Part shown: positions 41,607 through 61,890 of the stretch, one piece after another | Layout: each line of letters starts with the position of its first letter | Numbering within the stretch: the stretch's first letter is position 1 | Assembly: GCA_027459505.1 (NCBI GenBank) | Contig: DAIDIE010000029.1 | Coordinates: 124,001 to 188,000, forward strand | Direction: 5' to 3' | Source of the DNA: Acidobacteriota bacterium | GTDB taxonomy: Bacteria > Acidobacteriota > Terriglobia > Terriglobales > SCQP01 | DNA length: 64,000 nt | Program-made: the position numbers and the translations under genes | The notes under the pieces: generated by a model | What the model was told of the DNA's origin: nothing | The model's database searches: none | The model's input: the letters and a program-made list of their open reading frames with translations, nothing else

Positions 41607-42536
41607 TCAGGCGGACCCTTTGGGGTGTCCCGCGACAGCCGCCCGGGCCTGCGAGATGGAAATGGGCTTGCGCGATTCCGCAGGGGTGGGTTCCGCCGGG
41701 GCCTGTTCTTGACTGCGTGCAGCGGTTGGGACGGTGGCGGAACTGCCGGTGGCGCCGCTGTCCGATGCTGGCGCTGGCTCAGCGGGCGGCGGCGCGCCGT
41801 TGGGAATGGAAGCGCTGGCGGACGGTGTGTCCGGGGATTCCGGGGCAGCCGCGGCGGTGGCAGTGGCGGCTTGCTCCGCCTGCGCTTGGCGGGCCTTTCT
41901 TTGGGCGCACTCGGCGGCCCACTCCTGGGCACAGAGGCGCTCCTCTTCTTCCGGAGATAGTGGCGGGGGCGTCTGGGCGGCTTGCCGGCTGTACTGCTCC
42001 AGGAACTTGTCGATGCCGCCAAAACGGCGTGGGACGAGCATGGCAAGCAGATGCCGGGAAGCGCGGAGGTCGCCGCGGGAGGCGCTGAAATGCAACGCCA
42101 ACAACGCCCAGGGGCCCAGGCGAACGGCATGGCGGGCGACACGTTCCGACAGCCACTCCATAAACGCGGGATCGTTGGACCAACGGTAATAGGTGGAGGG
42201 GCTAATTTCGGTGCGTTCGCAGACGGCGGTGACGGTGGGAACGGTAGTCCAATGCGGACTGGTCATCTCCTGGAGGAAGCGTTGCTGGGTGGGCGTGGGC
42301 AGAAACTCCCAGACCGGCGCCGGGGAAGGAGGAGGCAGGAACGACTCCCAGCCGAAGGGGCGGGCGGCAAAAGGATTGGGCTGAGGTCCGGCGGCGCCAT
42401 CGACGCCTGCGGGGGCCGCGGCGGAGGCCGGGGCGGAGGCGCGAGGAGGATTGGAGGAGGAGGATGCTGTTGGTTTGTTGGCGATGAGCGGGGAATGGTT
42501 GTGGTGATGCTTTTTGCGTTTGCGAGATTTCGGCAT
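41607..42536 (-). CDS. HTH protein, terminase-small-subunit-like, with low-complexity flanks
   Basis: TVPTVTAVCERTEISPSTYYRWSNDPAFMEWLSERVARHAVRLGPWALLALHFSASRGDLRASRHLLAML; Pro/Ala/Ser-rich N- and C-termini. Confidence 0.6.
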   Translation of the reverse strand: MPKSRKRKKHHHNHSPLIANKPTASSSSNPPRASAPASAAAPAGVDGAAGPQPNPFAARPFGWESFLPPPSPAPVWEFLPTPTQQRFLQEMTSPHWTTVPTVTAVCERTEISPSTYYRWSNDPAFMEWLSERVARHAVRLGPWALLALHFSASRGDLRASRHLLAMLVPRRFGGIDKFLEQYSRQAAQTPPPLSPEEEERLCAQEWAAECAQRKARQAQAEQAATATAAAAPESPDTPSASASIPNGAPPPAEPAPASDSGATGSSATVPTAARSQEQAPAEPTPAESRKPISISQARAAVAGHPKGSA

Positions 42537-42801
42537 GGGAGATGCTCCTGGGCGCGGGACTGGCCAGCGCCGACAAAGCAATGGTGGAGTGAGAGAGGGG
42601 CGATGTCGATTCCCACAAATGGGGGAGGGTTACCGAGGGGCGGGGTTGTCACAATTTCGTGACAATGTTGAAACGATAACGTGTTGAAACAATAGCGTGG
42701 CCGGCGTGGCTCCGCCACGGGGAGTTTCTATCGGAGCGGCCCACCAGCGGTTGAACCGCTGGCTACTATCCGCAGGTGTGGCTCCGCGACACTGGGGGGA
42801 G
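42404..42801 (+). repeat. ~390-bp direct repeat, left copy
   Basis: Near-identical to 49893-50276, covering the HTH gene 5' end and its upstream palindromic region. Confidence 0.93.
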
Positions 42802-43001
42802 CGGGGGTGATCCATGCAGACAGATGGTTGTCGACTCACGCATGCCTGCTGTGCACCGGGGAAAGTCGTTGCCTCGCAGGGTGCCCCGCAGCCCGTCGCC
42901 ATTGAAATGAGTTCTGTTGTCGCGTCGAAGTGAACGCAACGGAATCAAGGGGAGTTGAGCATTCGCCATCCAATGGCAGGCTGGGGCGCAGATCACGTCC
43001 A

Positions 43002-44120
43002 TCAGGCGAGACGTTTCCGGAAGAGATTGCCGGCCACGATCATCGAGAACAGCCCAATTGTGATGAGGGGCCAGTATTGCGGCCAGAAGAGGGCTATGCC
43101 ACCACCTTCCAGAAAGCTGCCCCGCAGGACGATCAGAAAATATCGCAACGGATCGAGCAGCGTAATGTACTGCACGGCCTGAGGCATGTTCGCAATCGGG
43201 GTTGCGAAACCCGAGAGAACGATGGCGGGCACCATGAAAAGAAAGACGCCCAGCAGCCCCTGTTGCTGAGTAACGGCCAGGGATGAAATCATCAACCCAA
43301 TGCCAACCGAGGCGAACAGGAAGCAGAGCAAACCGATGTAGAGGGCAATCAGGCTCCCCGTGAAGGGGACATGAAACCAGAAGATCGCCATCAAGATAAT
43401 CAGCGTTCCTTCCGCCGTTCCAACCAAGAAACCTGGCAAGGCCTTTCCCAGCAGAATCTCCGCCGGAGGCATGGGGGTTACGAGGAGCTGGTCGAAGGTT
43501 CCCATTTCGCGCTCCCGCGCCACGGAGAGGCCCGTGGTGAGCATGCCGACCAGAAGCGTGAGGATGCCGCAAATGCCAGGAACGATGAACCAGCGGGAAT
43601 CGAGGTTGGGATTGAACCAGGCTCGATCCAATAGCACGGCGGGCGGCGGCCTCATTCCGTGCTGCGCCACTTGCGCCTGGTTGAACCGAGCCACGATGGA
43701 TTCCACGTATCCCATGGCAATGGCGGCGGTGTTCGAGTCTCTCCCATCCAGAACGATCTGGACGTGCGCCGGCCGCCCACGCTCCAGGTCCGCGCTGAAG
43801 TTCGGTCCGATATCCATCGCCATCAATGCCGACTTGTCATTGATGGATTGCTCGATCGCTCTCTGGTCGTGGACGAAGCGCACCAGATCGAAACTGGGCG
43901 CACCGGCAAAGCGCGCGACCAGCTTTCGCGAGAGTTGCCCCTGGTCCTGGTTGTAAACGACAAAGGGGACGTGCTTCAGTTCGAAGGTCGCCGCATAGCC
44001 AAACACGATGAGCTGGATGATGGGCGGACCGATGAGAACGGCGCGGCTGGCGGGGTCGCGCAGCAGGGCTAGCAGTTCCTTCACCACAAGCGCCAAAACG
44101 CGCGGAATTGTCGCTCGCAT
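43002..44120 (-). CDS. ABC-2 type permease (YbhR/YhhJ-like)
   Basis: MRATIPRVLALVVKELLALLRDPASRAVLIGPPIIQLIVFGYAATFE; six TM pattern. Confidence 0.9.
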   Translation of the reverse strand: MRATIPRVLALVVKELLALLRDPASRAVLIGPPIIQLIVFGYAATFELKHVPFVVYNQDQGQLSRKLVARFAGAPSFDLVRFVHDQRAIEQSINDKSALMAMDIGPNFSADLERGRPAHVQIVLDGRDSNTAAIAMGYVESIVARFNQAQVAQHGMRPPPAVLLDRAWFNPNLDSRWFIVPGICGILTLLVGMLTTGLSVAREREMGTFDQLLVTPMPPAEILLGKALPGFLVGTAEGTLIILMAIFWFHVPFTGSLIALYIGLLCFLFASVGIGLMISSLAVTQQQGLLGVFLFMVPAIVLSGFATPIANMPQAVQYITLLDPLRYFLIVLRGSFLEGGGIALFWPQYWPLITIGLFSMIVAGNLFRKRLA

Positions 44121-45235
44121 CAGTCCAACCTCTTGCGAAACCGCAGTGCGGACAGGCCCAGAAAGACGATCCCGAGGACGATCAGGCCCAGAAGGTTGGG
44201 CAGAATGACGGACCAGAGATCGCCGGCAAGAAACGAGGTTTGCAGCGCGGCGACAAAGTAGCGCGCGGCGACAATGTGCGTCAGGATCCGAATCGCCCGC
44301 GGCATCGAGCGGATGTCGAACAGAAATCCGGAGAGGATGAAGGCGGGAAGGAAGGTAGCGACGATCGCCACCATGGCGGCCACGAACTGACTGCGCGCCA
44401 GCACGGAGATCGCCAATCCCATCCCCAGAGCGGTAAGCAGAAAGAGCGCGGTCGTTGCAACGAGGACGGCCAACGAACCGCGCAGTGGAACATGGAACAG
44501 GAAGACCGCCATCGCTGTCGCCAGCATCATGCCGCCCATTCCCATGACGAAATAGGGAACCAGCTTCCCCACCAGGACTTCGGTCTTCGCTACCGGTGTG
44601 ACCATGATGCCTTCCATGGTGCCGCGCTCCCATTCCCGCGCCACCACCAGCGCCGTCAGCAGAGCTCCGATGAGCGTCATGATGATGGCAATGAGTCCCG
44701 GGATCAGATAATCGCGGCTAGTAAGGGCCGGGTTGAACCAGATACGCACATCCACGGCGACGGGAAGGGCGAGCGGCTGCCCCTGCAGCGCCGCCTGCCG
44801 TTGCAACCAGTTCTGCCAGGTTCCGTTCACGTAGTTCTGAACGATGCGCGCCTGATTGGCATCGACACCGTTGACGGTGAGGTGAATCGGAGCCTCACCG
44901 GAACTCAGAAACCGCCGCGAGAAGTCGCTGCGCAGCCAGAGGATCGCCTGCACGCGGCCTTGCATCATGGCCCGCTCCGCGGATGCCCGATCGGCATAGC
45001 GCGCCGGATGGAACCAGGGTGAATGGGCGAGTTCTCCGAGAAAGGACGCGGTCAGATACGTCGGCCGATCCACCACCTCGGCAACCGGAACGCGGCGCGC
45101 ATCGAGCGAAACGCCATATCCAAAAATCAGCAGCAGAACCAGAGGCAGCACGAAAGCGATGGCGATGCTCGAAGGATCGCGAACGATTTCATACACCTCC
45201 TTGCGCATAAGGCCGGTGACGCGCATCCGGTTCAT
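44120..45235 (-). CDS. ABC-2 type permease (YbhS-like)
   Basis: MNRMRVTGLMRKEVYEIVRDPSSIAIAFVLPLVLLLIFGYGVSLDA; WERGTMEGIMVTPVAKTEVLVGKLVPYF. Confidence 0.9.
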   Translation of the reverse strand: MNRMRVTGLMRKEVYEIVRDPSSIAIAFVLPLVLLLIFGYGVSLDARRVPVAEVVDRPTYLTASFLGELAHSPWFHPARYADRASAERAMMQGRVQAILWLRSDFSRRFLSSGEAPIHLTVNGVDANQARIVQNYVNGTWQNWLQRQAALQGQPLALPVAVDVRIWFNPALTSRDYLIPGLIAIIMTLIGALLTALVVAREWERGTMEGIMVTPVAKTEVLVGKLVPYFVMGMGGMMLATAMAVFLFHVPLRGSLAVLVATTALFLLTALGMGLAISVLARSQFVAAMVAIVATFLPAFILSGFLFDIRSMPRAIRILTHIVAARYFVAALQTSFLAGDLWSVILPNLLGLIVLGIVFLGLSALRFRKRLD

Positions 45236-46965
45236 GACGCCCTCCGGCTGACGTGCTCGTGTTCTTCGATCAGGGAGATGAAGGCGTCTTCCATGCTTGG
45301 GTTGGGTCGATCGGCGCGGCGAACCCTTCCCTTGATCTCGGTGGGAGAACCTTCCGCGAGCACCTCGCCCAGCGACATCAGGACCAGCCGGTCGCAGTAC
45401 TCCGCCTCCTCCATGAAATGCGTGGTCACCAGGCAAGTCGTGCCGCCTTGCGCGAGCGCGTTGACGCGCGCCCAGAACTCCCGCCGCGCCAGCGGATCGA
45501 CCCCCGAGGTCGGCTCATCGAGAAAGAGGATGCTCGGCTCGTGCATCAAAGCGCAGGCCAGAGCGAGGCGCTGCTTGTAACCAAGGGGCAGATCGGCGGC
45601 GTTGACGGCGATGTAGTCTTTGAGTTCGAGTTCTTCGAGCGCCCACCCGATTCGATCTCGCTTGCGGCGCCTGTGAAGGCCGTAAACGGTTGCGAAGAAG
45701 GACAGATTCTGTTGGACGCTCAGAGCGCCGTAGAGGGAGAACTTTTGAGAGACGTAACCGATGCGGGCCCGCGCCGCCGCTTCGCCGGTGCGCAGATCGG
45801 CGCCGGCCACGCGCAAGGTTCCCGAGGAGGCCGGCAGCAATCCGCAGAGCATGCGGAAGGTTGTGGACTTCCCGGCGCCGTTGGCGCCGAGCAGTCCGAA
45901 GATCTCGCCCTTGTGAACCGAAAAGCTAACGTCCTTCACGGCCGCAAAAGAGCCGAAGTAACGGTAAAGACTCTTCACTTCAACCACCGCGGCGTCATGG
46001 GCGGCGGCCTTAGCGGCCGGAGGTAGGGGAATGGAACGATGCGGATTGCGATTGAAAAGCAGACTGACAAACGCATCTTCCAGCCGAGCCGGCACAGGCT
46101 TTAATTGCCCCTGGACTGCCGGATCCGGCGGCAGCGGCAGCGGGTCTAGGGTCTTTATGACGATGCGCAGTCCATCTCCCTGGATCGCCGTGTCCACCAC
46201 GTCCGGCAGCCGCGCCACCTGAGACTGCAGCGCGCGCGGTGTCATCGCGGCTTCTTGGAGAAGGAAGGAATGGCCTTGCATGGGAGCGACGAGGTCCGCA
46301 GGGCTTCCTTGCGCGAGAATCTCTCCTTCGTGCAGAAGAAGGACATGGTCGCATCGCTCCGCTTCATCCATGTAGGCCGTGCTCAAGAGCACGGTCACCT
46401 TTTCGTGAATCACTTGCCGATGAATGATGCTCCACAACTCCCTGCGCGAGATTGGGTCCACGCCGACGCTGGCCTCATCGAGAAGCAGCACCTTCGGAGG
46501 ATGAATGAGGGTGCATGCCAAGCCGAGTTTCTGCTTCATTCCACCGGAGAGTTTTCCGGCCCGGCGCGCGCGAAAGGGACCGAGCGCCGTCATGGTGAGC
46601 AACTCGTCGAAGCGCGGCTTGCGCCTGTCTTCCGGGATGTTGTGCAGATCGGCGAAGAGGGTGAGGTTTTCTTCAACCGTGAGATTTTCATACAGACCGA
46701 AGCGTTGCGGCATGTAGCCGATTTGGGCCTGGAGGGGCAAGGCTTCTTCCGGCAGCGCATGACCGAGCACCTGAAGCGCCCCCGCGTCGGGCTGAAGGAT
46801 GCCGGCAAGCAGGCGAAGAAGCGTTGTCTTGCCCGCTCCGTCCGGACCGATGAGCGCGGTCATGCTGCCTTCGGCGATCTCGAAGCGGACATTCTTCAGC
46901 GCATCCTTGCGGCTGGTCCCCTTGCCGAAGGATTTGCGGAGATTGTTGACGGCGATCGCGCTCAT
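45232..46965 (-). CDS. Tandem ABC ATPase (YbhF-like)
   Basis: Two complete NBDs: GPDGAGKTTLLRLL...LSGGMKQKLGLACTL...LLLDEASVGVD and GANGAGKSTTFRML...LPLGYKQRLALACAL...LFLDEPTSGVD. Confidence 0.94.
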   Translation of the reverse strand: MSAIAVNNLRKSFGKGTSRKDALKNVRFEIAEGSMTALIGPDGAGKTTLLRLLAGILQPDAGALQVLGHALPEEALPLQAQIGYMPQRFGLYENLTVEENLTLFADLHNIPEDRRKPRFDELLTMTALGPFRARRAGKLSGGMKQKLGLACTLIHPPKVLLLDEASVGVDPISRRELWSIIHRQVIHEKVTVLLSTAYMDEAERCDHVLLLHEGEILAQGSPADLVAPMQGHSFLLQEAAMTPRALQSQVARLPDVVDTAIQGDGLRIVIKTLDPLPLPPDPAVQGQLKPVPARLEDAFVSLLFNRNPHRSIPLPPAAKAAAHDAAVVEVKSLYRYFGSFAAVKDVSFSVHKGEIFGLLGANGAGKSTTFRMLCGLLPASSGTLRVAGADLRTGEAAARARIGYVSQKFSLYGALSVQQNLSFFATVYGLHRRRKRDRIGWALEELELKDYIAVNAADLPLGYKQRLALACALMHEPSILFLDEPTSGVDPLARREFWARVNALAQGGTTCLVTTHFMEEAEYCDRLVLMSLGEVLAEGSPTEIKGRVRRADRPNPSMEDAFISLIEEHEHVSRRAS

Positions 46966-46966
46966 C

Positions 46967-48049
46967 TCACTTTCCCTCGCAGGGATGGGCTTCGATTCCG
47001 CCGGCGGGGTTGTTGCCGAGGGGAACGATCACCGTGGCCGGCATGCCCAGGCGGAGTCGATGATCGGAATTGCAGGCATACACGCGCACCCGATAGACAA
47101 GCTGCGAGCGCAATTCCGTGGTTTCTACATTTTTAGGCGTGAATTCCGATACTGGTGAGATAAACCCAACCCATCCGGGAAAGCGCCGGCCTGGAAAGCT
47201 GTCCACTTCAATCCATGCGCGCATGCCCAGGGCGACTTTGCCCATCTGCGGTTCTGGCAGATAGGCTCGCACCCAGAGAGGATTGTCGAGAGCCAGGGTG
47301 AAGACCGGTGTCTGCGGGCTCGCCATATCCCCAGGCTCCAGAATTCTGTTCTGGATGACGCCCTCGGCGGGAGCATAGAGCTGGGTGTCCGCCAACTGCT
47401 TTTGTGCCAAGGCGAGCGCCGCCCGATCGGCCTTGAGCGTCGCCTCCGCCGCGGCGATGTCTTCCTTGCGTGGGCCGATCACGGCCAGTTGCAGGGCTTG
47501 CCGTCTGGCGGCAAGAATTTGCTCGGTGGCGGCAAGATCGGCCTTCTGCGCCAAGTAGGAGCGCTCTGCATCGTCCCGAACCTGTAACGAGACGTACTGC
47601 CGCTTGGCCAGGGTCCGCTGCCGGTGAAAAAGCAATTCTGCATTTTTCGCGTTGGCCCGCGCGGCGGCCACATTGGCTGAGGCCGCGGCTACGTCCGCGC
47701 GCGCCTCAGCGATCTCTTCCGGCCGGCTCCCGGCGCGCAGCCTCGCTACAACCTGCCGCTGTGCCGCCACAAGCGCCCGATCCCGCGCGACGGCATCGGA
47801 AAAGCGCTGCTGAGCCAACTGGCCGAGCAGTTGCCCGGCGTGAACCACGCTGCCTTCATCCACCAACAGCTTGTCAATGCGTTCATTGTCGTTGAAGGCG
47901 ATCTGCACCTGGCGAATGTCGACATTGCCATAGATTGTGACGCTGTCGGCTGGCGCGTTCTTCCGGTGAAGCCCGCGCCAGGCGAAGAAGCCCGCGGCAA
48001 CGAGGATCGCCAGTGCCAGGATGGAAATGCGCTTTCTGACCGAAATCAT
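46967..48049 (-). CDS. HlyD-family membrane fusion protein
   Basis: N-terminal TM, VDEGSVVHAGQLLGQL, coiled-coil, YAPAEGVIQNRILEPGDMASPQTPVFTLA. Confidence 0.9.
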   Translation of the reverse strand: MISVRKRISILALAILVAAGFFAWRGLHRKNAPADSVTIYGNVDIRQVQIAFNDNERIDKLLVDEGSVVHAGQLLGQLAQQRFSDAVARDRALVAAQRQVVARLRAGSRPEEIAEARADVAAASANVAAARANAKNAELLFHRQRTLAKRQYVSLQVRDDAERSYLAQKADLAATEQILAARRQALQLAVIGPRKEDIAAAEATLKADRAALALAQKQLADTQLYAPAEGVIQNRILEPGDMASPQTPVFTLALDNPLWVRAYLPEPQMGKVALGMRAWIEVDSFPGRRFPGWVGFISPVSEFTPKNVETTELRSQLVYRVRVYACNSDHRLRLGMPATVIVPLGNNPAGGIEAHPCEGK

Positions 48050-48069
48050 AAGGACTCCCGCGTGCCTGT

Positions 48070-49446
48070 TCAATTCGAGGTGCTGCCATCGAGCAAAGAG
48101 TTGATGCTCTCAATGTCGAGAGGGGTCAATACCCCCGCTGCCGCCTTGAGCTGCGTTCTAGCCACCAGTTGCGTGTAGAGAGCCAGATAGTAGTTGCGCT
48201 GCGCCGCCGCGTAGTTCGTAGTCGCCGTCAGCAGATCGACGATCGACCGGCTCCCAATCTCGTAGCCCTTGCGGGTGCCCGCGAGCGCTACCTTCGCGGA
48301 GGCGACCGATTGCCGCGCCGCCCGATACTGAGCGACGCTGTTTTGCAGATCGAGGAACGCCGTCTGCGTAGCGAGCTTGATCCGGTCTCGCGTATTCGCC
48401 ACATTCTCCCGGCTTGCCCGGGCCAGCGCCTGGGCCTGGCGAATGCTCGCGCGCGTGCGTCCGCCCTCGAAGACGGGAATGGAAAGGTTCAGCGCCGCGC
48501 CCGCCTGATCGATCGCAACCGGCGGTATCAACGCTCCCGCCGCATGTTGTCCGACTCCGCTGAGGGTCAGGGTTGGCCAGCGCGCTCGCTCGGCATACCG
48601 AACCTGTTGTTCGGAAACATGCAGGGTCGCCTTGGCCTGACGCAGGAGAGGCTGGTTCTTTAGGGCGGCGGCAACCCAGGCGTCCGCGGTATCCGGCTGG
48701 GGACCGATTGCTTTGAGACTCGTTACATCCCGCAGGGTCCCGATGGGATTGTGGGTGAGGCGCGCTAACTGGTTCCTGGCCACCGCAACCGCATTCCTTG
48801 CCTCGATCCAATCGGCTTTCGCGGCGTCTAGCTGCGCCTGCGCTTCCTGGACGCTGATGATGTCGCCGGTCCCAACTTTCAGCCTGGCATTCGTCTGGTC
48901 ATAGATACGATGGAGCAGATCGACCTGCCGATGGGCGACTCGCTCGTTCGCCCCTGCCTGGAGCACACCGAAATAAGCCTGCGTGACCTCCAGCGCAACC
49001 ACCTGTTGCGCATAGGCCAGGGCCGCCTCACTAGCCTGAATCCTGCTATCCGCCTGCTTCAGGGCTACGAGGCTCCGACCGTCGAACAGAGCTTCGGTGA
49101 GACTGGCGCTGAAAACATCGGAGTGATAACCGGTGGAGATGGACTGAGCGCCGAAGCCAGTTACACGTGCCGTATTCACGCCCCCACTGGCAAACGCGTT
49201 GAGATGAGGCAGGAGCGCCGCGCGCGCCAGTGGCTTGCGAGCCAGCGCCGCGTCCAGCTGCGCGCGGGACTGGGCAATCATCGGCGAGGAATGCGCCGCC
49301 TGCCGGTAGGCGGTTGCCAGATCCTCCACCGTTGTCTGCGCCGCGGCCGGCGCCGCGATCCACAACATCGCGAGCGGAACCAACGAGAACGCCCAGGTCA
49401 AGCGCCTGAATAGGGTCGCTCTTCTCCGTTTCGACTGGATCTTCAT
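48070..49446 (-). CDS. TolC-family outer membrane efflux protein
   Basis: Signal peptide; two OEP repeats (ALAYAQQVVALEVTQAYFGVLQA; TRDRIKLATQTAFLDLQNSVAQYRAARQSV). Confidence 0.92.
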   Translation of the reverse strand: MKIQSKRRRATLFRRLTWAFSLVPLAMLWIAAPAAAQTTVEDLATAYRQAAHSSPMIAQSRAQLDAALARKPLARAALLPHLNAFASGGVNTARVTGFGAQSISTGYHSDVFSASLTEALFDGRSLVALKQADSRIQASEAALAYAQQVVALEVTQAYFGVLQAGANERVAHRQVDLLHRIYDQTNARLKVGTGDIISVQEAQAQLDAAKADWIEARNAVAVARNQLARLTHNPIGTLRDVTSLKAIGPQPDTADAWVAAALKNQPLLRQAKATLHVSEQQVRYAERARWPTLTLSGVGQHAAGALIPPVAIDQAGAALNLSIPVFEGGRTRASIRQAQALARASRENVANTRDRIKLATQTAFLDLQNSVAQYRAARQSVASAKVALAGTRKGYEIGSRSIVDLLTATTNYAAAQRNYYLALYTQLVARTQLKAAAGVLTPLDIESINSLLDGSTSN

Positions 49447-49449
49447 TGC

Positions 49450-49749
49450 TTACCTCGAACGTTCTTTCAAAACCTGTGTCGCGCAAGTGAAGAAGTTGCA
49501 CACGCAGGGCGTGATCAGCCGGTAATACACGGTGGTCTTCTCGCGGCGGTCTTCGACGATTCCATGTGCGCGTAACAATGCCAGGTGCTTGGAGACGGTC
49601 GACAGATCGCTGCCAACGAGTTCCCGGAGGTCTCCAACCGAACACTCGCCATGGCTAAGCCGGTCTACAATCAGCAGCCGAGACTCGTGAGCAAGGGCTT
49701 TCAGCATCCTCGCCTGTTCCGCAAACGCGTGCCGCTTGTCCTTTGCCAT
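49450..49749 (-). CDS. ArsR-family transcriptional regulator
   Basis: RMLKALAHESRLLIVDRLSHGECSVGDLRELVGSDLSTVSKHLALLRAHGIVEDRREKTTVYYRL; C-terminal CVCNFFTC. Confidence 0.93.
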   Translation of the reverse strand: MAKDKRHAFAEQARMLKALAHESRLLIVDRLSHGECSVGDLRELVGSDLSTVSKHLALLRAHGIVEDRREKTTVYYRLITPCVCNFFTCATQVLKERSR

Positions 49750-49760
49750 GGTGTTTCCTT

Positions 49761-49770
49761 ATTGGCCAAT
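49761..49770. promoter_or_regulatory. Palindrome ATTGGCCAAT upstream of arsR, possible operator
   Basis: 10-bp palindrome 11 bp upstream of the arsR start codon. Confidence 0.35.
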
Positions 49771-49829
49771 TAGTCATCTATTTGCCGCCGCAGTCAGTGA
49801 TCGCCAGCACATGTCCCCATCACTGCCGT

Positions 49830-50024
49830 CTAAAGTGGCGGGAATCGGGTTGGATCGGTAGTGAAAACGCTGTGGAAAGCGGGGGCGTAGAAGCCTGCGT
49901 GGGCCGCGGCGGCGGCCGGAGCGGAGACGCGAGGAGGATTGGAGGAGGAGGATGCTGTTGGTTTGTTGGCGATGAGCGGGGAATGGTTGTGGTGATGCTT
50001 TTTGCGTTTGCGAGATTTCGGCAT
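49830..50024 (-). pseudogene. Truncated duplicate of the HTH gene 5' end
   Basis: MPKSRKRKKHHHNHSPLIANKPTASSSSNPPR identical to the N-terminus of the 41607-42536 protein, then diverges and stops. Confidence 0.8.
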
Positions 50025-50276
50025 GGGAGATGCTCCTGGGCGCGGGCGGGACTGGCCAGAGCCGATAAAGCAATGGTGGAGTGAGAGAGGGGCGATGTCG
50101 ATTCCCACAAATGGGGAGGGTTACCGAGGGGCGGCGTTGTCACAATTTCGTGACAATGTTGAAACAATAACGTGGCCGGCGTGGCTCCGCCACGCGGGGT
50201 TGCTATCGGAGCGGCCCACCAGCGGTTTCACCGCTGGCTACTATCCGCAGGTGTCGCTCCGCGACACTGGGGGGGA
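49893..50276 (+). repeat. ~390-bp direct repeat, right copy
   Basis: See left copy at 42404-42801. Confidence 0.93.
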
Positions 50277-50465
50277 GTGGCGTAGCGGGGGGAGGCGAGG
50301 GATTACACGTGTATTAGGCGGCTGAGCCGTGCGGGTGAGCGCCCTTACCCGCATTTTAGAGAGGGCGAACCCGAAAAGGGCCATGTCCGCAACACGTTTC
50401 CTTGCGAGAAACAAGAGAGGATGGGGGAAGAGGATGGGGAAGCTTGTGCCGTGCGAATCTGGCAA

Positions 50466-50963
50466 TTACGCTGGGCTTCGCTTGCGGCCGGTTGCCGCCG
50501 GCTCGACATCCAGATCGCCGAGGATGCGTCTGGCCACCATGCTGGTGGCGGCGGCGACCGCGGCCGACAGGGTTTGGCCGGGCGCAAAGCTTTGGCCTTC
50601 AATCCCGTAGACAATCACGTGCGCCGGCAGTTCTCCCAGGGTTCGCGCCAGTTCAATCGCCGAAGCGACGCCGAAGGCGTGACTGGAGAAGAGCACAAAG
50701 TTTTTGGGAAGACACTGGCTGCCCGCCTCCAAACGGTGCAGGGTCCCCACTTCGGCGCCGGAACGGACCGCGTCGATAAGGATCACCGTCTCGTAGCCCC
50801 GCCAGGCTTCCATCAGGGCGGCGCCTTCGCCGCTCAATTCAATCAGCTCCACTGCAGCGGGAAGAGCCCAGTTCCGCAGCTCACTGATCACCGCTTGCCC
50901 GGCGCCATCATCGCCCCGAAACCGGTTGCCGACGCCCGCAACCAGCACCTTGGCGGAATTCAT
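50466..50963 (-). CDS. Hydrogenase maturation protease
   Basis: [51 protein letters not shown]. Confidence 0.88.
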
Positions 50964-52273
50964 GCCTTCTCCAGGCGCAGGTCCAGGAAGTGGGTGGCGC
51001 AGGAGATACACGGATCGTAGTTGCGAATGGCCTGCTCACAGCGCCATTGCAGCTCGTCTTTCGGCAGGTCGAGGTGCCGGCTGGCCAACTCGAACAAGTC
51101 GCGCTCGATCGTCTTCTGGTTTTGCGCAGTGGGCGGAACGATCTTGGCGTCCAGAATGACGCCGTGATCGTCAAAGCGGTAGCGGTGATAAAGAATTCCG
51201 CGGGGCGCCTCGGTACAGCCATATCCGGAGGAGGCGCGAGGTTGCACCTCGATAAAGGGGCGCTCCGGCGTCTCGTAACTCTCCATGATACGCAGGGCTT
51301 CGTGGCAGGCAAAGACCAGCTCGACCGCGCGCACCACGATGCTTTGGAAGGGGTTGCGGCAAACGCGGCCAAGCCCGGCCTCGCTGGCGGCTTGCTGGGC
51401 AACGGGGGGAAGCACATCGTAGTTCAGCGCGTACCGCGCCATGGGTCCAACGAAATAGGCGCCCCGGGAATTGATCACCGAGTGCAGCGCATTGGAATGT
51501 GCCAGGTGCTCCTCCGTGAAATGCTGTTCGTATTCGCCAATCGATATCTGAGATTTACCCTCGCCAAAGCCATTACTGGAGCCCAGTTGCCCTTCATTCA
51601 GTGGGTACTCGGATGGATGTTGGAGAGCGACAAAGTCGTAATCGCGTTCGAAGTCCGGGAAGGGAAGCGTGGCGGCGAAGCGGACCGTCTCCAGTGCGGC
51701 ATCCAGCGCCCACTTCACATCGTCGATCAAGGCGCCAAGCTCGCGTCGCGCGGGAACCTTGTAGAAGCCGCCCACACGAACATTGATGGGGTGAATCTCG
51801 CGTCCTCCGAGCAGGGTCATGATGGCGTTGCCAACCTTTTTCAGGCGGAGGCCGCGCTTGACCGCTTCGGGGTGGTCCTGGGCCATGCGGATCGCGTCCT
51901 CATAACCGAGGAAGTCCGGGGCGTGCAGCATGTAGACGTGCAGCGCATGGCTCTCGATCCATTCGCCACAGTAAAGCAGGCGGCGCAGGTCGCGCAGCGG
52001 CCCCACGACCTGAACGCCGAAGGCGTCTTCGATGGCATGACAGGCGCTCATTTGGTAGGCAACGGGGCAAATTCCGCAGATACGCGCGGTGATATCGGGC
52101 GCTTCGCTGTAGGCGCGCCCGCGCAGGAAGGCTTCAAAAAAGCGCGGGGGCTCGAAGATGGCCAGCTTGGCCTCGAGCACGCGATCATCCTTGATTTTGA
52201 GACGCAGCGAGCCTTCGCCCTCGACCCGCGCCAGCACCCCGACTTTAATGGTCCTGGTGGTGTTCGCGCTCAT
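50960..52273 (-). CDS. [NiFe] hydrogenase large subunit, group 3b-like (HydA/HoxH-type)
   Basis: L1 [24 protein letters not shown]2 [33 protein letters not shown]. Confidence 0.94.
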
Positions 52274-53045
52274 GACTTTCGGCCTCCTTGCGAAAGGGCT
52301 CGGCATTGGCGTTGAAGGTGCGGTAGGCGCGCAGGATATCCTGTTCGCCCACCCCGAGCCCGCTCCAGATGGTGCTGAGCGAGTGGCTGTTGGGCGTTTC
52401 CTTGGGACCAAAGCAGCCAAAGCAGCCGCGCTCATACCCGGGGCACAGCGCGCCGCAGCCGGCCTGGGTTACCGGCCCCATGCAGGGGATGCCGCGCGCG
52501 GTCATGATGCAGATGGCGCCGCGGCGCTTGCACTCCATGCAGACACTGAAGGCGGGGATATTGGGTTTGCGGCCGTGCAGCAGGGCGCTGATCAGCTCCA
52601 CCAGTTGGAACTTGTTGACCGGGCAGCCGCGCAGCTCGAAATCGACGGCGACGTGATCTTTGATCGGCGTGGACTTGTTCAACGTCGCGATGTACTCCGG
52701 ATGGGCGTAGACGATCGCGGTCATCTCCCGCACATTCTTGAAATTGCGCAGTGCCTGGATGCCGCCAGCGGTGGCGCAGGCGCCAATCGTGACCAGCATC
52801 CTTGAAGAACGCCGTATGGCATGAATGCGCTCGGCATCGTGCGGGGTGGTAATGGAGCCTTCGACCAGCGAGAGCGCGTAGGGTCCGCCGACCACGGCGC
52901 GCGAGGCTTCTGGAAAATTGGCTATCTCGACCGCGCCCGCGATGGCGAGAAGCTCATCTTCACAATCGAGCAGGCTGAGCTGGCAGCCATCGCAGGAAGC
53001 AAACTTCCAAACCGCCAGTTTGGGGCGCTTGGCCGGTTTCGGCAT
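52245..53045 (-). CDS. [NiFe] hydrogenase small subunit (HydD-like)
   Basis: [78 protein letters not shown]. Confidence 0.94.
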
Positions 53046-53046
53046 C

Positions 53047-53919
53047 TTAGACCTCCGCCTTACCAAAAATCGGCTCGACGCGATCAAAGGAAAACACCGG
53101 GCCATCTTTGCAGATAAACGCGGGCCCATACTGGCAGTGACCGCAGAATCCAGTGCCGCATTGCATGTTGCGTTCCACCGAGACAAAGATCCGTTGGGGC
53201 GGGACGCCGCATTTGCGCAGATCTAGGACGCAGAAGCGCATCATCACTTCTGGTCCGCAGAGCATGGCAATTGTGCCGGCGGGATCAAAGGTGGCGCGCG
53301 GCAAAAGCGTGGTGACCACGCCAACGTTGCCGCGCCACCCGGCGCCGCCGCGATCCACGGTCACGTCGATTTCAAGGTCAAACTGGCCGCGCCAGCGCTC
53401 CAACTCGCGCAAGTAGAGGATGTCCTCTGGCGTTCGCGCGCCATAGAGCAGGGAGATGCGGCGGTATTTGCGCCGGTCATGCAGCAGGTGATAAAGAGCT
53501 GGGCGGAGCGGGGCCAGACCAATACCGCCGGCCAGAATCACCACATCCTGGTCCACCGCTTGCTTAACTGGCCAGCCGCTCCCAAATGGACCGCGCAGCC
53601 CGATCATGTCGCCCCGCTTTAACGCGCACAGAGCCTTGGTCACGGCGCCGACGGCGCGGATAGTGTGCAACAGTATGGGGCAGTCGTTTGGGTCGCCGCT
53701 GATGGAGATGGGAACCTCTCCGGCGCCGAATGCGTAGAGCATGTTGAACTGGCCGGGGAGAAACGCGGCCAGCCCGGGCGCCTGCGCGGGAACCATTTCC
53801 AGGGTAAACGTGTCGTAGGTCTCGCGCCGCACCCGTTCGACGCGGTAGGGAACCGGCAACATGGGGTTGCCCGCCGGAGCGCGCGGATTTGCCGCTAGTT
53901 CAATCGCGTGGGCCGTCAT
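53047..53919 (-). CDS. Hydrogenase FAD/NAD(P)-binding diaphorase subunit (HydG-like)
   Basis: [87 protein letters not shown]. Confidence 0.93.
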
Positions 53920-54379
53920 AGATGTCCAGTAACTGCAGCCGCGTGGCGTCCAGCCGCTCGAAAGCCATGTTGTAGAAGCGTTTCAGCATTTCGTAGCCCA
54001 GGTCGTGATCTTCCTCGCACTTGGCGCGCAGACACTTGCCATCGAAGGCCAGCGCTCGCGTTGGACACTTGGCGCGGCCGTCGAAATGCCAGCGATAGGG
54101 TGGCGCCAGCCACGACCAGCCGAGCACGTCCCCGGGACCCACGGTCTGTACGGTAACGGCGCCGCGGCGCGGAACCAGCAGTTCAATCGAGACGAGGCCC
54201 TCGCGTACGAAATAGAAATGATCGGCGTCGTCGCCCTCCCGGAAGATGAACTGGTCTTCCTGGAAGCGCACATTGGTGGCGCACCCGGCGATGAACTGGA
54301 TGTGATGCTCCTCCAGATCCTTGAAGAATGCGTGCTCACGAATCACGGAATCGAGCGTTTGAATCATAAGGCGCCTCAT
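53900..54379 (-). CDS. Cyclic-nucleotide-binding (Crp-like) domain protein without HTH
   Basis: [26 protein letters not shown]...[15 protein letters not shown]; ends without a DNA-binding domain. Confidence 0.8.
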
Positions 54380-54429
54380 TTGCCGTTCCTTGTAGAGACT
54401 TGCCCGCTCACCGTTAGAGCCCGGCGCAT

Positions 54430-55593
54430 TTAAGGCGCGTGGGCGCCAGCGGCTTGTGCCTCTCGCAACGCGCGTGCTTCCGCGGTGATATCGATTCCCG
54501 CCGGGCACCAGGCAATGCAGCGGCCGCAGCCCACACAGCCGCTCTCGTCAAACTGATCGATCCAGGCCGCCAGCTTGTGCACCATCCACTGGCGATAGCG
54601 CGCTTTCGTGGAGGACCGGACGCTGCCGCCGTGGAGGTAAGAAAATGCGGTGGTAAAGCAGGAGTCCCAGCGGCGCCAGCGTTCGGCGTGATCGCCGCTG
54701 AGATCGGTGACGTCTTCGATCGTGGTGCAGAAGCAGGTGGGGCAGACGAGGGTGCAGTTGGCGCAACTCAAACAACGCTGGGCAATGGCTTCCCAGTGCG
54801 GATGGTCGTAACTGCGGTAGAGCAAGGCCTGCAGCCCGCCGGTATCAAGCTGGCGTCCCATGTGGGCGGCGGCATGGTCCAGCTGGCTGGAGGCAAGTTC
54901 CCGCTCTTCGGCGCTGGCAACGCGGGTGGTCAACGCGGCCAACACGTCAGCGCCGCGCGAGGAGCCGGCACGTACGACAAAACGGTGACTGCCTTCCAGA
55001 AGTTCCGTAAGTACCAGGTCATAGCCCGAATCCGCACCGGGGCCGGTTCCCATCGAGGCGCAGAAGCAGGTGGCGCCCGCCTGGGTACAGTTCACAGCAA
55101 CAAGAAACGTGCTTTCACGAAGGCGCTTGTAGTCCGGATCGGTGTAGTTGGGGCTGGCCAGAACTTTGTCGAGGATGGCGATGGCATGGAGTTCGCAGGC
55201 CCGCACCCCCAAAAAGGCATACCGGGGCTGGCGGGACGGAACCTCCTCGACAATGCGGAAAGCGCCCTGCGTTCCGTTCTGCTGGCAGGTCGCGGTAAAG
55301 AGGCGATGGGAAGCTGGGTAGAGGAATTTTTTCCAGGAATGCGGGCCCACATTGAAGCCGAACAAGGCATCGTCATCGCGGCGCCGGAGGCGGTAATATC
55401 CGGGACCTTGCTCGTCGGTCCAGCCGCGTGGCAGGTCGTCAACCGTATGAACCGGTTCATAAACGATGGCCCCATCGCGAATGCTGGGACCGATCACTTC
55501 ATACCCCTGGTGGGCAAGCGCGCTCAGGAGCTCACCAAGCCGCGCAGCTTCGAGGATAAACTGTTCGCCAGCTTCCATGGCGCCATCCCTCAA
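54430..55593 (-). CDS. Hydrogenase 4Fe-4S dicluster subunit (HydB-like)
   Basis: [40 protein letters not shown]. Confidence 0.92.
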
Positions 55594-55635
55594 ATCCTTT
55601 ATCTCAGGTTGCGGCGGCGGGCGAAATGATGGGTG

Positions 55636-57996
55636 TCATTTCATGCTCCTTGCCGCCACCATAACCTGCCCCAAACTGAGTCCGCCATCACCGCTGGGCA
55701 CCGCGGACTGGCTGAAGACCCGGAAACCGGACAGTTCCAGTCGCCGCGTCAACGTAGTCAGCAAAAAGGCGTTGTGAAAGCATCCGCCAGAGAGGCAGAC
55801 GCGATCCAGGCCGCTCTCGTCGCGCAGCAGTTGGGCCAAGCGCACGAATGTCTCAACCAGGCCGCAATGAAATCGCGCGGCAATACTGGAGACCGGCGTC
55901 TGTTTTCTCAAATCGGCCAGTATGGCGGCAAACAGCGGCCGGGTGTCGATCAGCCAGGGCGCGCCAGGAGGCTTGGTCGCCCCACCTTCCTCGACTGCTG
56001 AGCGCCCAGCTTGCCGCCGTAACTCCAGCGGGTAGGCCCGAGCGCTACCGGGGTCGTGCAGAATGTCCAGAGCGGCTTCCAACTCGATAGCTGCCTGCCC
56101 TTCATACGTGGCCTTCTGACGAATGCCGGTCAGCGCGGCCACCGCATCGAACAGACGGCCGCAGCTTGAGGTTGCCGGTGCATTGAAATGGCGCTCCATC
56201 ATTTGCAGCAGGAGTTCGGTGGCATGCCGGTCGAGGGAGTGAACGAATGGAAGATCCATGGTTAGAAAAGCACGACCGTAATGACGGGCGAGGTAACTGA
56301 CCGCCATGCGCCAGGGCTGCCGTATGGCTTGTTCACCACCCGGCATGGGGACGTAATCAAAGTGAGCGGCGCGGGTAAACCCCTCATAGCCAGCCAGCAG
56401 AACCTCGCCACCCCAGATGTTGCCGTCGGCGCCGTATCCGGTGCCATCAAGCGCGAAGCCGATGACGCGCCCGTCGAGCCGGTTTTCGGCCATGCAACTG
56501 GCGATGTGGGCATGGTGATGCTGTACGCCGATCAGCTTTACCCCCTTGTGGTCCAGCGCCCATTGCGTGGAAAAGTAGCGGGGATGGAGATCGTAGGCGA
56601 TGGCGGCGGGCTCGATGTCGAGCACACGGGCGAGGTGTTCGATGACATCGTCGAAAAACTGCGCGCTGGCGGCGTTCTCCAGGTCCCCGATATGCGGACT
56701 GAGAAAGGCTTCCCGGCCTTTGGCGGCGCAGATCGTGTTTTTCAGCTCACCACCCACCGCCAGGATCGGCGGCACGGACTTGTGCAGGAGCACCGGCACA
56801 GGAACGAAGCCGCGCGACCGGCGCAGTTGCCGCACTCTGCCCCCAACTGCCCGGACCACGGAATCGTCGCATCTCCAGACAATGTCGCGGTTATGGACAA
56901 GAAAGGCGTCCGCGATGCCGCTTAACCGCTCGATGGCTTCGTGGTTACCCGTAACGATCGGCTCCTCGCTAAGGTTCGCGCTGGTCATCACCAGCGCTTT
57001 GAGAGTGCCGCCGGCGAAAAGCAGATGATGCAGCGGAGTATAGGGCAGAAAAAGACCAAGTTCCCGGCGGTGAGGCGCGATCTCCGCGGCAATGGCAGCG
57101 GGAATGGCACAGCTCTGGCGCTTGGGCAGCAGCACTATGGGCCGCTGTGGGCTCACGAGCGCCGCCGCACCGGCTTCGTCCAGCTCACAAAGCTCCTGCG
57201 CGGTCTCCAGATCGGCCACCATGAGGGCCAGCGGCTTCTCGAAGCGGTTTTTGCGGGCGCGCAGCTTGCGAACCGCATCGGCGCCGGTGGCATCGGCCGC
57301 AAGATGAAAGCCGCCCAGGCCCTTGATGGCGATAATCTCGCCCTGCAGCAGGCGCGGAATGATGGCGGCAACCGGATCGGCGCAGGCAATTACTTCCCCT
57401 GCCTCATTCCACAGGCTCAGGCGAGGGCCGCACTTCCAGCAGGCGTTGGGCTGGGCGTGAAAGCGGCGGTTGCCCGGGTCGGTGTACTCGGCCTGGCACT
57501 GCGGACACATCTGGAACCCGGCCATCGAGGTTAGACGGCGATCATAAGGAACTCCGTGAATGATGGTGAAGCGGGGGCCGCAGTTGGTGCAGTTGATAAA
57601 AGGGTACCTGTAGCGGCGGTCGGCGGGGTCGAGCAGCTCGCGCAGGCAGTCGGCGCAGACCGCCACATCGGCGGCAATCAGCGTACGGTTCGCGGCGCCA
57701 CGCTCGCTGGCGACGATCTGAAAGCCGTGTTCGCCTGAGAACCCAGCTTCGCCATGGCACGCCAGCTCTTGAACTTCAATCCGGGTGATGCGGGCCAGTG
57801 GAGGCGCGCCGGTTGGCAAGCACCGCAGGAACTCCTCAACCTGCTCTCGCGGCCCCTGCAGTTCAATCGTGGCGCCACGCGAAGTGTTGCGCACGTTCCC
57901 GGTCAGGGCACGCTCTTGCGCCAGGCGGTAGACGTAGGGGCGGAAGCCGACGCCCTGCACGATGCCGGATACCTCGATGCGCCGCCGTATCTTCAT
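55636..57996 (-). CDS. hypF: Carbamoyltransferase HypF
   Basis: Acylphosphatase domain GIVQGVGFRPYVYRLA, CADCLRELLDPADRRYRYPFINCTNCGPRFTI, HHHAHIASCMAEN. Confidence 0.96.
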   Translation of the reverse strand: MKIRRRIEVSGIVQGVGFRPYVYRLAQERALTGNVRNTSRGATIELQGPREQVEEFLRCLPTGAPPLARITRIEVQELACHGEAGFSGEHGFQIVASERGAANRTLIAADVAVCADCLRELLDPADRRYRYPFINCTNCGPRFTIIHGVPYDRRLTSMAGFQMCPQCQAEYTDPGNRRFHAQPNACWKCGPRLSLWNEAGEVIACADPVAAIIPRLLQGEIIAIKGLGGFHLAADATGADAVRKLRARKNRFEKPLALMVADLETAQELCELDEAGAAALVSPQRPIVLLPKRQSCAIPAAIAAEIAPHRRELGLFLPYTPLHHLLFAGGTLKALVMTSANLSEEPIVTGNHEAIERLSGIADAFLVHNRDIVWRCDDSVVRAVGGRVRQLRRSRGFVPVPVLLHKSVPPILAVGGELKNTICAAKGREAFLSPHIGDLENAASAQFFDDVIEHLARVLDIEPAAIAYDLHPRYFSTQWALDHKGVKLIGVQHHHAHIASCMAENRLDGRVIGFALDGTGYGADGNIWGGEVLLAGYEGFTRAAHFDYVPMPGGEQAIRQPWRMAVSYLARHYGRAFLTMDLPFVHSLDRHATELLLQMMERHFNAPATSSCGRLFDAVAALTGIRQKATYEGQAAIELEAALDILHDPGSARAYPLELRRQAGRSAVEEGGATKPPGAPWLIDTRPLFAAILADLRKQTPVSSIAARFHCGLVETFVRLAQLLRDESGLDRVCLSGGCFHNAFLLTTLTRRLELSGFRVFSQSAVPSGDGGLSLGQVMVAARSMK

Positions 57997-58030
57997 TCGT
58001 CCTCGTCTGTGGGAAGGCGACTCCCTCTGC

Positions 58031-58801
58031 CTATGAAATGGCGGTCTTAATGGCTGGCTTGCCTGGGGAACGGTCGATGCCTTCGGGCGCCGCCGTTGGG
58101 CGCGCGTTGGCTGCGCCTGCCAACGTTTCCGCCCCGAAGCTCCGGTTGCCGCAGGCGTGGCGCCGGCGCTCAATCCACTCGCTCCAGGCGCCAAGCCCCT
58201 CTCCAGTGGCGCAGGACAGGTGGATGATCTCCAACTCCGGGTTTACCGCCCGCGCGTTGGCCTCCGCTCTCCCAAGATCAAACGAGACATGAGGCAGCAG
58301 GTCGAGCTTGGTGACCAGCATGAGCCGGGCTTTGAAAAAGGTTCCCGGATACTTGAGCGGCTTTTCGTCCCCCTCGGTGACGCTGAGCAGGACAATCTTG
58401 GCGGCTTCCCCAAGATCGTAGCTGGAAGGGCATACCAGGTTCCCGACGTTCTCAATAAACAGGAGTTCGATCTTACCGATCGGGAATTCCCGTAGCGCGT
58501 TCTCGATCATGCTGGCATTCAAGTGGCAGGTACCGCCGGTGGTGATCTGTTTCACCGGAAAGCCGTAGCGCCGCAGGCGGGCGGCATCGGAATCGGTCTG
58601 GATATCGCCGGTGAGCACCCCCACCGCTTCGTGAGAGGCGAAGCCGTTCAGGGTGCTCTCCAGCAGCGCGGTCTTGCCGGAACCGGGGGCGCTGATCAGG
58701 TTGAGGCACAAGATGCCTCGTTCGCGGAAGCTCTCCCGGAGCCGCGCGGCGATTTTGTCGTTTTCGCTGAGCACCTTCTGTTCAAGTTCGACACGTTTCA
58801 T
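58031..58801 (-). CDS. hypB: Hydrogenase nickel incorporation GTPase HypB
   Basis: LNLISAPGSGKTALLESTL, GDIQTDSDAARLRRYG, FIENVGNLVCPSSYDLGE. Confidence 0.95.
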   Translation of the reverse strand: MKRVELEQKVLSENDKIAARLRESFRERGILCLNLISAPGSGKTALLESTLNGFASHEAVGVLTGDIQTDSDAARLRRYGFPVKQITTGGTCHLNASMIENALREFPIGKIELLFIENVGNLVCPSSYDLGEAAKIVLLSVTEGDEKPLKYPGTFFKARLMLVTKLDLLPHVSFDLGRAEANARAVNPELEIIHLSCATGEGLGAWSEWIERRRHACGNRSFGAETLAGAANARPTAAPEGIDRSPGKPAIKTAIS

Positions 58802-59138
58802 CTTCGACCTCCAGATAGGTAATCTCCAGTTCATCGCCGCCCAGCAAGTCCGCGCTGCTGCAAGCGCAGCGCGGGCAGGCGGACAACAGGCCGCCCACGT
58901 AGTGGGCGCCGCAGGCGCGGCAGAGGCGGCGTGGCGAGCACGACTCAATGGCCAATTCCAGTTCTGCAAACGGCGTGTCACGCGTCGCGGCGGTCAAGGC
59001 AAAACGCAGAGACTCGGCATTGACCGATGATAGTTCGCCAATGCGCAGACCGGCACGGCGCGGGCGCAGGCCACCCCGCGCGCGGCACTCCGCCTCGATG
59101 GTCTTCAGAATCGCATTGGCAATGCTGAGTTCATGCAT
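58782..59138 (-). CDS. hypA: Hydrogenase nickel incorporation protein HypA
   Basis: MHELSIANAILKTIEAE; zinc site CRACGAHYVGGLLSACPRC. Confidence 0.94.
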   Translation of the reverse strand: MHELSIANAILKTIEAECRARGGLRPRRAGLRIGELSSVNAESLRFALTAATRDTPFAELELAIESCSPRRLCRACGAHYVGGLLSACPRCACSSADLLGGDELEITYLEVEDETCRT

Positions 59139-59148
59139 AGAGCGGCTC

Positions 59149-60231
59149 TCAGCAGATACGCGGAAGTTGATCTCCGCTCAGCATGTCGAGCATGCGCGCG
59201 GTGCCCAGAGTGGTGCGCACGGTGACCCTGCCCGCAGGTCCGTTAATCACGGTTCCAATGATTTCCGCCTCCCGTCCCAGCGGGTGCTCCCGCAGGGCGC
59301 CCAGGGCGGTTTCCGCGTCCTCGGCTTTGACGATGGCCACCAGCTTGCCTTCGTTGGCGACATAAAGAGGGTCCAGCCCCAGCAGCTCACAGGCGCCGCG
59401 CACCTGTTCGCGCACGGGAACACGGTGTTCCTGGAGTTCAATGCCCACCTGCGACTGCGCCGCGATTTCGTTGAGCGTGCTGGCCAGTCCCCCGCGCGTG
59501 GGGTCGCGGAAGCAGCGAAAGGATGCGCCGGTGGCCAGCAGGGCCGCGACCAGGTTATGAAGCGGGGCCGAGTCGCTCTGAATGGCCGTTTCCAGTGCAA
59601 GCCCTTCGCGCTGCGCCAGAATGGCGATGCCGTGGTCGCCCAGAGGGCCGCTGACCAGCACCTTGTCTCCGGGCCGGGCGTTTCCCGCGGAGAGCGCCAA
59701 ATCGTGATGGACCACGCCGATGCCCGAGGTGTTGATAAAAAGGCCATCGCCGCTGCCTTTCTCGACGACCTTGGTATCGCCCGTAACCACCGCAACACCA
59801 CATGCGCGCGCCGCTTCTTGCAGCGAAGCGCTGATTTGCCGCAGCGTGTCGAGCGGCAGCCCTTCTTCCAGAATGAAGGCGGCGCTCAGAAAGAGCGGAG
59901 TCGCCCCGCCCATGGCGAGGTCGTTGACCGTTCCATGTACGGCGAGGGAGCCAATGTCACCACCGGGAAAAAACAGGGGCTTGACCACAAAGGAATCCGT
60001 GGTGAACGCCAGACGGATACCGTTGACGCTCACCATCGCCTGGTCGTTCAGGAGCGCCAGCGCGGGATTGTCGAAGGTGGGCAGGAAGATTTCATGAATC
60101 AGCTCCGCGCTGAGTTTTCCGCCGCTGCCGTGGCCGAGCAGGACGCTTTCCCCCGCCGGTAATGGAGAGGGGCAGAGTGCGCCGCTCATGGTTTGCGGCG
60201 CTGTTGCCTTGACTGGCCTGCTTCCGTTCAT
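59149..60231 (-). CDS. hypE: Hydrogenase expression/formation protein HypE
   Basis: [54 protein letters not shown]-terminal LPRIC. Confidence 0.96.
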
Positions 60232-61343
60232 GGCCGCGGCTCCCCCGCATGCGCGGCATGGCGGCGATATTGGTAGTAGGCGGCGCAGGCGCCCTCGCTG
60301 GAAACCATAGGGGCGCCCAACGGGTTGGAGGGGGAGCAGCGCTCAGCGAAAGCAACGCAATCGGTGGGCTTTTTGAGTCCCTGCAGGATTTGAGCGCTGA
60401 TACAGTCGGGCGCTTCTTCAATCGCCGCGCCGGTGGCAAATGGAAACACCTTCTCGGCGTCGAAAGCGGCATACTCCTCGCGGATGCGTAGACCGCTGTG
60501 GGGAATCAGGCCGATCCCTCTCCATTTCTGATCGCAAGGGGTAAAGACCCGCTCGACTGCCCGTTGCGCGGGCAGGTTGCCATCGCAGGTGACCGAGCGT
60601 ACGTACTGATTTTCGACCTGGGCGCGACCGTGTTCAAGCTGAGCGATCAGCATGGAAATCGCTTCCAGGAGATCGACCGGCTCGAATCCGCCGACCACAA
60701 TCGGCAGGCAAAAGTCTGCGCTGAGTTGTTCGTATTCGCGGTATCCCATCACGGTGCAGACGTGGCCAGGGGCAATCAGGCCTTGTACGCGGTTGCTGGG
60801 CGAGCCCAGCAGCAGGCGCATAGCCGGCGGCACGAGCACGTGGGAAACCAGCATGGAAAAATTGGTGATTCCAGCGCGGTGCGCCTCCCAGATCGCCATG
60901 GCATTGGCCGGTGCGGTGGTCTCGAAGCCTACGCCAAAGAAGACCACCGCTTTATCCGGATGCGCGCTGGCAATCGTGACGGCCTCCAGGGGCGAGTAGA
61001 CGATGCGCACGTCGGCCCCGGCGGCTTTCGCGCGCAACAAGTCGTTACGCGACCCAGGGACGCGCAGCATGTCCCCGTAGGAGACCAGAATGACCTCCGG
61101 CCGCATGGCGAGCGCGATAGCCCGATCGATCTTCTCCAAGGGGGTGACGCAGACGGGACAGCCGGGCCCGTGCACCAGTTCGATGCCGGCCGGCAGCAGA
61201 TCCTCAATGCCATAGCGCATGAGGGTGTGGGTCTGGCCGCCGCAAACCTCCATGAGCACCCACGGACGCGCCGCCGTTTCACGAATTTGGCTGACCAGCA
61301 TCCGCGCAATGCGCTCGTCGCGATACTCGTCGAGATACTTCAT
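60228..61343 (-). CDS. hypD: Hydrogenase formation protein HypD
   Basis: [51 protein letters not shown]. Confidence 0.96.
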
Positions 61344-61649
61344 AACGCTGGTGGCTCTGGTTTCGCCAGGCCTTGCGGAGGTGGTTGGGGCGGCTCCGCG
61401 CCGGAAGCGGCGAGTTCGGCTTCCAGCAGGCCCATGGCTTGCAGCAGTTGAAAAGTTCTTGCGGCCTCCGCCGCGTCCACACGGCTGATGGCGAAGCCCA
61501 CATGGACGATGACGTAATCGCCGGCGCTGGCCTCCGGGACGAAGTCCAGGCAGACCTCACGGACCACGCCGCCAAAGCTGACCCGGGCGTGGCGCAGGGG
61601 GGCCCGCTCCGTTATCTCCAGGACCTTTCCGGGGATAGCCAGGCACATA
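61340..61649 (-). CDS. hypC: HypC/HybG/HupF family chaperone
   Basis: [14 protein letters not shown]...[27 protein letters not shown]. Confidence 0.94.
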
Positions 61650-61890
61650 GGGGGAACTCCTATACCGGCGGCGGTTTTCTGCACTCTCGGCCAGCGCTGA
61701 GGTAAAGGTAACGCAGGGCGCGGTGACCACGCTGTAAGCCACCGCACGTGGCGATGTGTGCCTGCTAACACAGTCGCCAGCAGCGGCAGAGCGAGCAATG
61801 GACGCCACCGAAGGGCGTGGGGTTGTCTGCAAACGTTGCGGGCAGGTTTTGCGCGGGAAGGGGGGTCTGGCGCCGCCCCGGGCTTAAAGC

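Follow-up and report, generated by a model that had tools for sequence, protein, structure and literature searches.

Layout of the locus

The window analysed here is a stretch of 64,000 nucleotides from an Acidobacteriota bacterium (Terriglobales; SCQP01), covering positions 124,001 to 188,000 of the forward strand of contig DAIDIE010000029.1 (assembly GCA_027459505.1), and the piece in focus runs from position 41,607 to 50,276. The genome is a 4.06-Mb draft in 45 contigs. Within this piece, two long direct repeats enclose a set of genes which all belong to one minus-strand operon, arsR-tolC-hlyD-ybhF-ybhS-ybhR. The gene names, first proposed in a first-pass annotation of the same DNA, were confirmed by Pfam and NCBIfam. 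The positions of the operon, the repeats and the neighbouring features are listed in Table 1.

Table 1. Features of the efflux-operon locus and its borders, in window positions
Feature	Position	Strand	Remarks
Intact HTH gene, 309 aa	41607..42536	-	left repeat is its 5' end plus upstream region
Left direct-repeat copy	42391-42799		HTH codons 1-46, promoter region, REP-like element
REP-like triple-hairpin element, left copy	42702..42792		mismatch in third hairpin
Left junction sequence, ~160 bp	42803..42960		no similarity to relatives, HTH locus or donor loci
ybhR-type ABC-2 permease	43002..44108	-	Pfam/NCBIfam
ybhS-type ABC-2 permease	44120..45253	-	Pfam/NCBIfam
ybhF-type double ATP-binding-cassette protein (double-NBD ATPase)	45232..46965	-	Pfam/NCBIfam
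HlyD/YbhG-type membrane-fusion protein	46967..48073	-	Pfam/NCBIfam
TolC-type outer-membrane factor	48070..49446	-	Pfam/NCBIfam
ArsR/SmtB-type regulator	49450..49749	-	Pfam/NCBIfam
Operon's own upstream region	49750..49820	-	palindrome ATTGGCCAAT kept in several other genomes
Right junction sequence, ~65 bp	49816..49880		
Right direct-repeat copy	49879-50274		truncated HTH 5' end, promoter region, REP-like element
Truncated HTH remnant in right copy	49887-50024	-	residues 1-46, 89% identity, then diverges
REP-like triple-hairpin element, right copy	50177..50267		
Hydrogenase maturation protease (hycI), right flank	50466..50969	-	opens [NiFe] hydrogenase and hyp cluster

The efflux operon

The operon combines an HlyD adaptor, a double-NBD ATPase and two ABC-2 permeases, which is the gene set of the YbhGFSR-type exporters. 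E. coli YbhFSR is described in PMC7190983 as exporting tetracyclines and dyes. The window operon differs from these exporters in encoding its own TolC protein as well as an ArsR-type regulator. Because it also keeps its own conserved ArsR-type promoter region, the operon probably works as an inducible exporter that is independent of the repeat. The ArsR-type protein carries a cysteine cluster, CVCNFFTC, at its C-terminus, which may be a metal(loid) site.

A variant of the same operon was seen in another acidobacterial genome (locus L078), in which about 4.1 kb (4500-8540) lie between arsR and tolC. This interval encodes a DGC/GcvH-like (lipoate-binding) fusion, a second DGC protein, a lipoate-protein ligase and a CMD-family protein, and these genes suggest a link with lipoate-dependent sulfur chemistry.

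The direct repeats

Only one long direct-repeat pair was found in the 10-kb region. The two copies share the same orientation at a spacing of ∼7.49 kb and are slightly longer than the first-pass annotation had noted. A global alignment of 42391-42800 with 49879-50275 gave 414 columns with 20 mismatches and 21 gap columns, and the gaps fell into three indels of 4, 1 and 16 bp, the last of which is TGTTGAAACRATARCG duplicated in tandem in the left copy. The identity was ∼90% when gaps were counted and 94-97% per block (divergence ∼5%), for which the earlier description of the copies as near-identical was a little strong. The longest identical run spans 114 bp (42440-42553), and the match as a whole lies far above chance (E about 1e-163).

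As had been described, the left copy is part of an intact HTH gene together with its upstream region, and the right copy holds only the 5' end of that gene before diverging, with ∼46 codons instead of the ∼40 given previously. Read outside inward on the HTH coding strand, the repeat consists of the hairpin element, followed by an inverted repeat TTGTCACGAAATTGTGACAA and a box CCCCATTTGTGGGAATCGACA, and then by the start codon and 46 codons. The inverted repeat and the box are taken as an HTH-family promoter region because counterparts of both precede the two HTH paralogues of this genome. A sigma-70 scan of the repeats returned no promoter-like match and was uninformative.

The first-pass annotation had considered that its reading would fail if the repeat lay at many unrelated loci. 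The full repeat was present in two copies in the genome and only its REP-like end was dispersed; every further match fell within the hairpin element or the opening 43 bp of the HTH genes. In 40 relatives the full repeat was not found, and the matches there were limited to 22-47 bp. Since the genome is a draft of many contigs, an assembly or binning artefact could be suspected, but the copies differ at 20 positions and by three indels and both lie inside one 245-kb contig, which makes a collapse or join by the assembler unlikely. We therefore give an artefact almost no credence: the structure at 42391-50274 is real and is counted as ordinary genome evolution.

A feature that went beyond the first-pass annotation was that the outer end of each direct repeat coincides with the end of a REP-like element of ∼90 bp. 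The element is built of three hairpins, which read GCGTGGCTCCGCCACGC, CCAGCGGTTTCACCGCTGG and GTGTCGCTCCGCGACAC in the right copy. This copy folds 5.2 standard deviations below its shuffles (z -5.2), and the left copy (z -1.6) shows no such strong folding. At positions 42720, 42753-42754 and 42780, where the dispersed copies are decisive, the base that prevails among them is found in the right copy. At least eight degenerate REP-like copies occur elsewhere in the genome (among them G000 C1, C21, C42, C45, C32, C20 and C10; L004, L006-L010 and L012). The element resembles REP elements and other palindromic repeats in being short, dispersed, palindromic, extragenic and prone to mark recombination ends. 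It differs from them as a ∼90-bp triple-hairpin unit with degenerate copies, and has been assigned to none of the described REP families.

The HTH gene and its paralogues

The HTH protein is Ala/Pro-rich with a basic N-terminus (MPKSRKRKKHHHNH), and its HTH resembles that of transposases and terminase small subunits. Two full paralogues with 49% amino acid identity were found elsewhere in the genome, on contigs C14 and C19. Their loci are ∼82% common over 1.4 kb and share further blocks, a segmental duplication which shows that the HTH gene family takes part in such events. The paralogues are longer than the window gene and, counted from the common MPKSRKRKK start, exceed 450 aa (L162 ∼5130-6653, L163 ∼5341-7137), and the first 43 bp of their coding sequences are 91-93% identical to it, although the proteins are only 49% identical.

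As judged from the genomes searched, the HTH gene is lineage-restricted. No good-scoring relative was found outside this genome among 14 family genomes, none among 397 genomes of the order, with few candidates scored per genome, and none in 14 operon-carrying genomes, in a search run without a positive control. Plasmids and viral contigs were also without a relative of the protein, and this result, like those for the order and for the operon carriers, holds at the thresholds that were applied.

Foreign origin of the operon

About twenty acidobacterial loci have the six-gene order or its five-gene core, and proteobacterial loci share the hlyD-ybhF-ybhS-ybhR core. Acidipila rosea is one culturable acidobacterium in which the operon occurs. 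The operon proteins of the best three loci (L077-L079) are 84-93% identical to those of the window, whereas the HslU proteins of the same genomes reach only 72-75% identity to the window HslU, compared with 85% for a family member. The same relation was seen at fourfold-degenerate sites, where divergence from these loci was 0.27-0.41 for the operon and 0.50-0.63 for hslU. The operon was not found in 13 other family genomes, several of which are incomplete (best HlyD match 37%), and the plasmids searched held only distant relatives, at about 48% amino acid identity at best. Similarity to distant genomes above that of a core gene, together with absence from close kin, argues for horizontal acquisition from another acidobacterium, a conclusion that these comparisons support well.

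DNA homology with L078 spans 42960-49815, a stretch that includes the arsR upstream region, and breaks off 65-160 bp short of the repeats on their inner side. The proposal that a foreign cargo of ∼7 kb had been inserted is well supported on three counts: the similarity to distant loci, the absence from the family, and the end of homology just inside both repeats. In the comparison of composition between insert and flanks that the first-pass annotation had suggested, no clear difference was seen. No resemblance was found between the two junction sequences and the HTH gene, its 3' flank or the sequence preceding hycI, and a search for the source of the 160-bp left junction gave chance-level matches only.

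Flanks and variability of the site

On the left, the family shares hslV-hslU and an FN3-like gene, beyond which the genes differ by genus. An empty site was sought through hslVU synteny in nine family loci, which had only hslV, hslU and the next FN3-like gene in common, and none of them offered an empty site for comparison. From window 39941 onward, past the FN3-like gene, the genes are genus-specific (L222-L230), which marks the site as insertion-prone.

On the right, positions 50466-61798 hold a group-3b-like [NiFe] hydrogenase, a cNMP-binding regulator gene and a hyp maturation cluster. The hydrogenase resembles the HydADGB type, and we infer that it is group 3b-like because of its ShyA/HydA-type matches. 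The cluster was found in ∼30 of the 397 genomes of the order, and the 13 family genomes lack it save for very weak matches. It is probably a second acquired cluster adjoining the efflux operon, and the site is variable and probably took in at least two foreign clusters. The operon has landed at a site that varies between genera.

Formation of the duplicated borders

The locus holds a directly duplicated host segment that brackets foreign DNA, as in Campbell-type insertion-duplication and in homology-facilitated illegitimate recombination, where direct repeats of host DNA likewise flank foreign cargo and one gene copy is intact while the other is truncated. We tentatively regard such an event as the most likely route by which the acquired operon arrived, at somewhat under even chances. 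Its entry point would have been the gap that separates the hydrogenase cluster from the HTH gene and from that gene's promoter and REP-like element. The incoming molecule would have included the 5' portion of the HTH locus, or been attached to it, and would have recombined there, either by a single crossover with a circle or through one homologous end and one illegitimate end. The HTH gene would then be present as a pair of direct repeats, one copy complete and the other truncated. Single-crossover insertion of a gene fragment produces just this layout, in which foreign DNA is flanked in direct orientation by the intact gene and by its 5' fragment. The joining of a homologous end with an illegitimate one in natural transformation is described by works cited in PMC8116780.

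The repeats, the foreign origin of the operon and the limits of its homology are established by the data; we infer in addition that a single event brought both the insertion and the duplication, with the repeat already present on the incoming DNA. The match between the outer repeat end and the end of the REP-like element also speaks for this route. The divergence of the repeats (∼5%) is far below the fourfold divergence of the operon (0.27 or more), and therefore the duplication is younger than the split from the nearest known relatives; it may date from the arrival of the operon. The case departs from the Campbell-type model in its diverged repeats and in the filler at its junctions. Three results weigh against it: neither an empty-site allele nor a circular form nor a donor with an HTH fragment was found in the genomes, plasmids and viral contigs searched, the 65- and 160-bp junctions match no source found, and the operon loci of other genomes are without the window's repeat.

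The same borders could have formed in two steps, which we consider possible but distinctly less probable. The operon would have been inserted between the REP-like element and hycI without any duplication, and a local segmental duplication would then have copied the HTH 5' end, promoter and REP-like element to a place upstream of arsR. The HTH loci are prone to segmental duplication, as the C14 and C19 loci illustrate, and the right copy sets an HTH-type promoter region just upstream of arsR in the operon's orientation. Under this order of events, however, the duplicate must land by chance exactly at the outer edge of the operon, and one event is simpler. With respect to the earlier claim that integration duplicated flanking DNA, duplication by the insertion itself remains plausible, but duplication after the insertion is equally compatible.

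The reverse order, in which the HTH locus was first duplicated in tandem and the operon was then inserted into the right copy with deletion of its 3' part, appears rather unlikely. It agrees with the presence of paralogous HTH duplications in the genome and with the state of the right copy, in which the promoter region is intact but only the 5' part of the gene is left. However, a remnant of a tandem HTH gene was sought at the left junction and rejected, as the 160-bp sequence there is unlike the HTH 3' part or its downstream flank, and this order would therefore need total loss of what remained of the second gene. Each of the two-step histories, with a local duplication after the insertion or a tandem duplication before it, fits nearly as well as the single insertion-duplication event.

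Excision and mobility

Recombination of the RecA type between the two copies could possibly delete ∼7.49 kb in any RecA-proficient cell, because 114 bases are identical. This run also bears on the first-pass suggestion of a recombination-excisable cassette, in which recombination at the direct repeats would let a mobile unit leave and re-enter the chromosome. A crossover within the homologous stretch would excise the same length, and the intact HTH gene, its promoter region and the REP-like element would stay behind beside hycI. No recombinase or transposase gene lies between the repeats, however, the copies have drifted by ∼5% with three indels and show no sequence homogenisation, and the full repeat is found nowhere else in the genome. 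The identity permits RecA to act, but the locus gives no sign of activity, and we consider an active cassette highly improbable.

The known classes of mobile unit fit poorly as well. A composite transposon also carries cargo between direct repeats, but the window repeats encode an HTH fragment only, with no transposase, and occur nowhere else in full. As for an integrative element with att sites, the interval between the repeats holds no transposase, integrase or tRNA, no integrase was found among the genes of 41607-50969, and there is no tRNA in the whole window. Overall, the structure has the appearance of a routine horizontal insertion accompanied by a local duplication, without sign of an active mobile cassette, and a new mobile mechanism is not indicated. 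The case documents a tripartite efflux operon that has moved among acidobacteria and settled beside a duplicated host fragment.

A broader reading would make the HTH 5' module (promoter region, first codons and REP-like element) a recurrent recombination anchor of this lineage that captures foreign operons. We hold this to be very improbable; if it were true, RecA could afterwards remove the captured operons as units, and an intact HTH gene would stay in place. When direct repeats around the operon were sought in 14 other genomes, only one locus (L083) had a long pair, of a different sequence. There the operon lies inside direct repeats of ∼827 bp that are 92% identical (1975-2800 and about 16692-17518), enclose about 14 kb, are unrelated to the window repeat, and carry a 140-aa ORF without a Pfam match.
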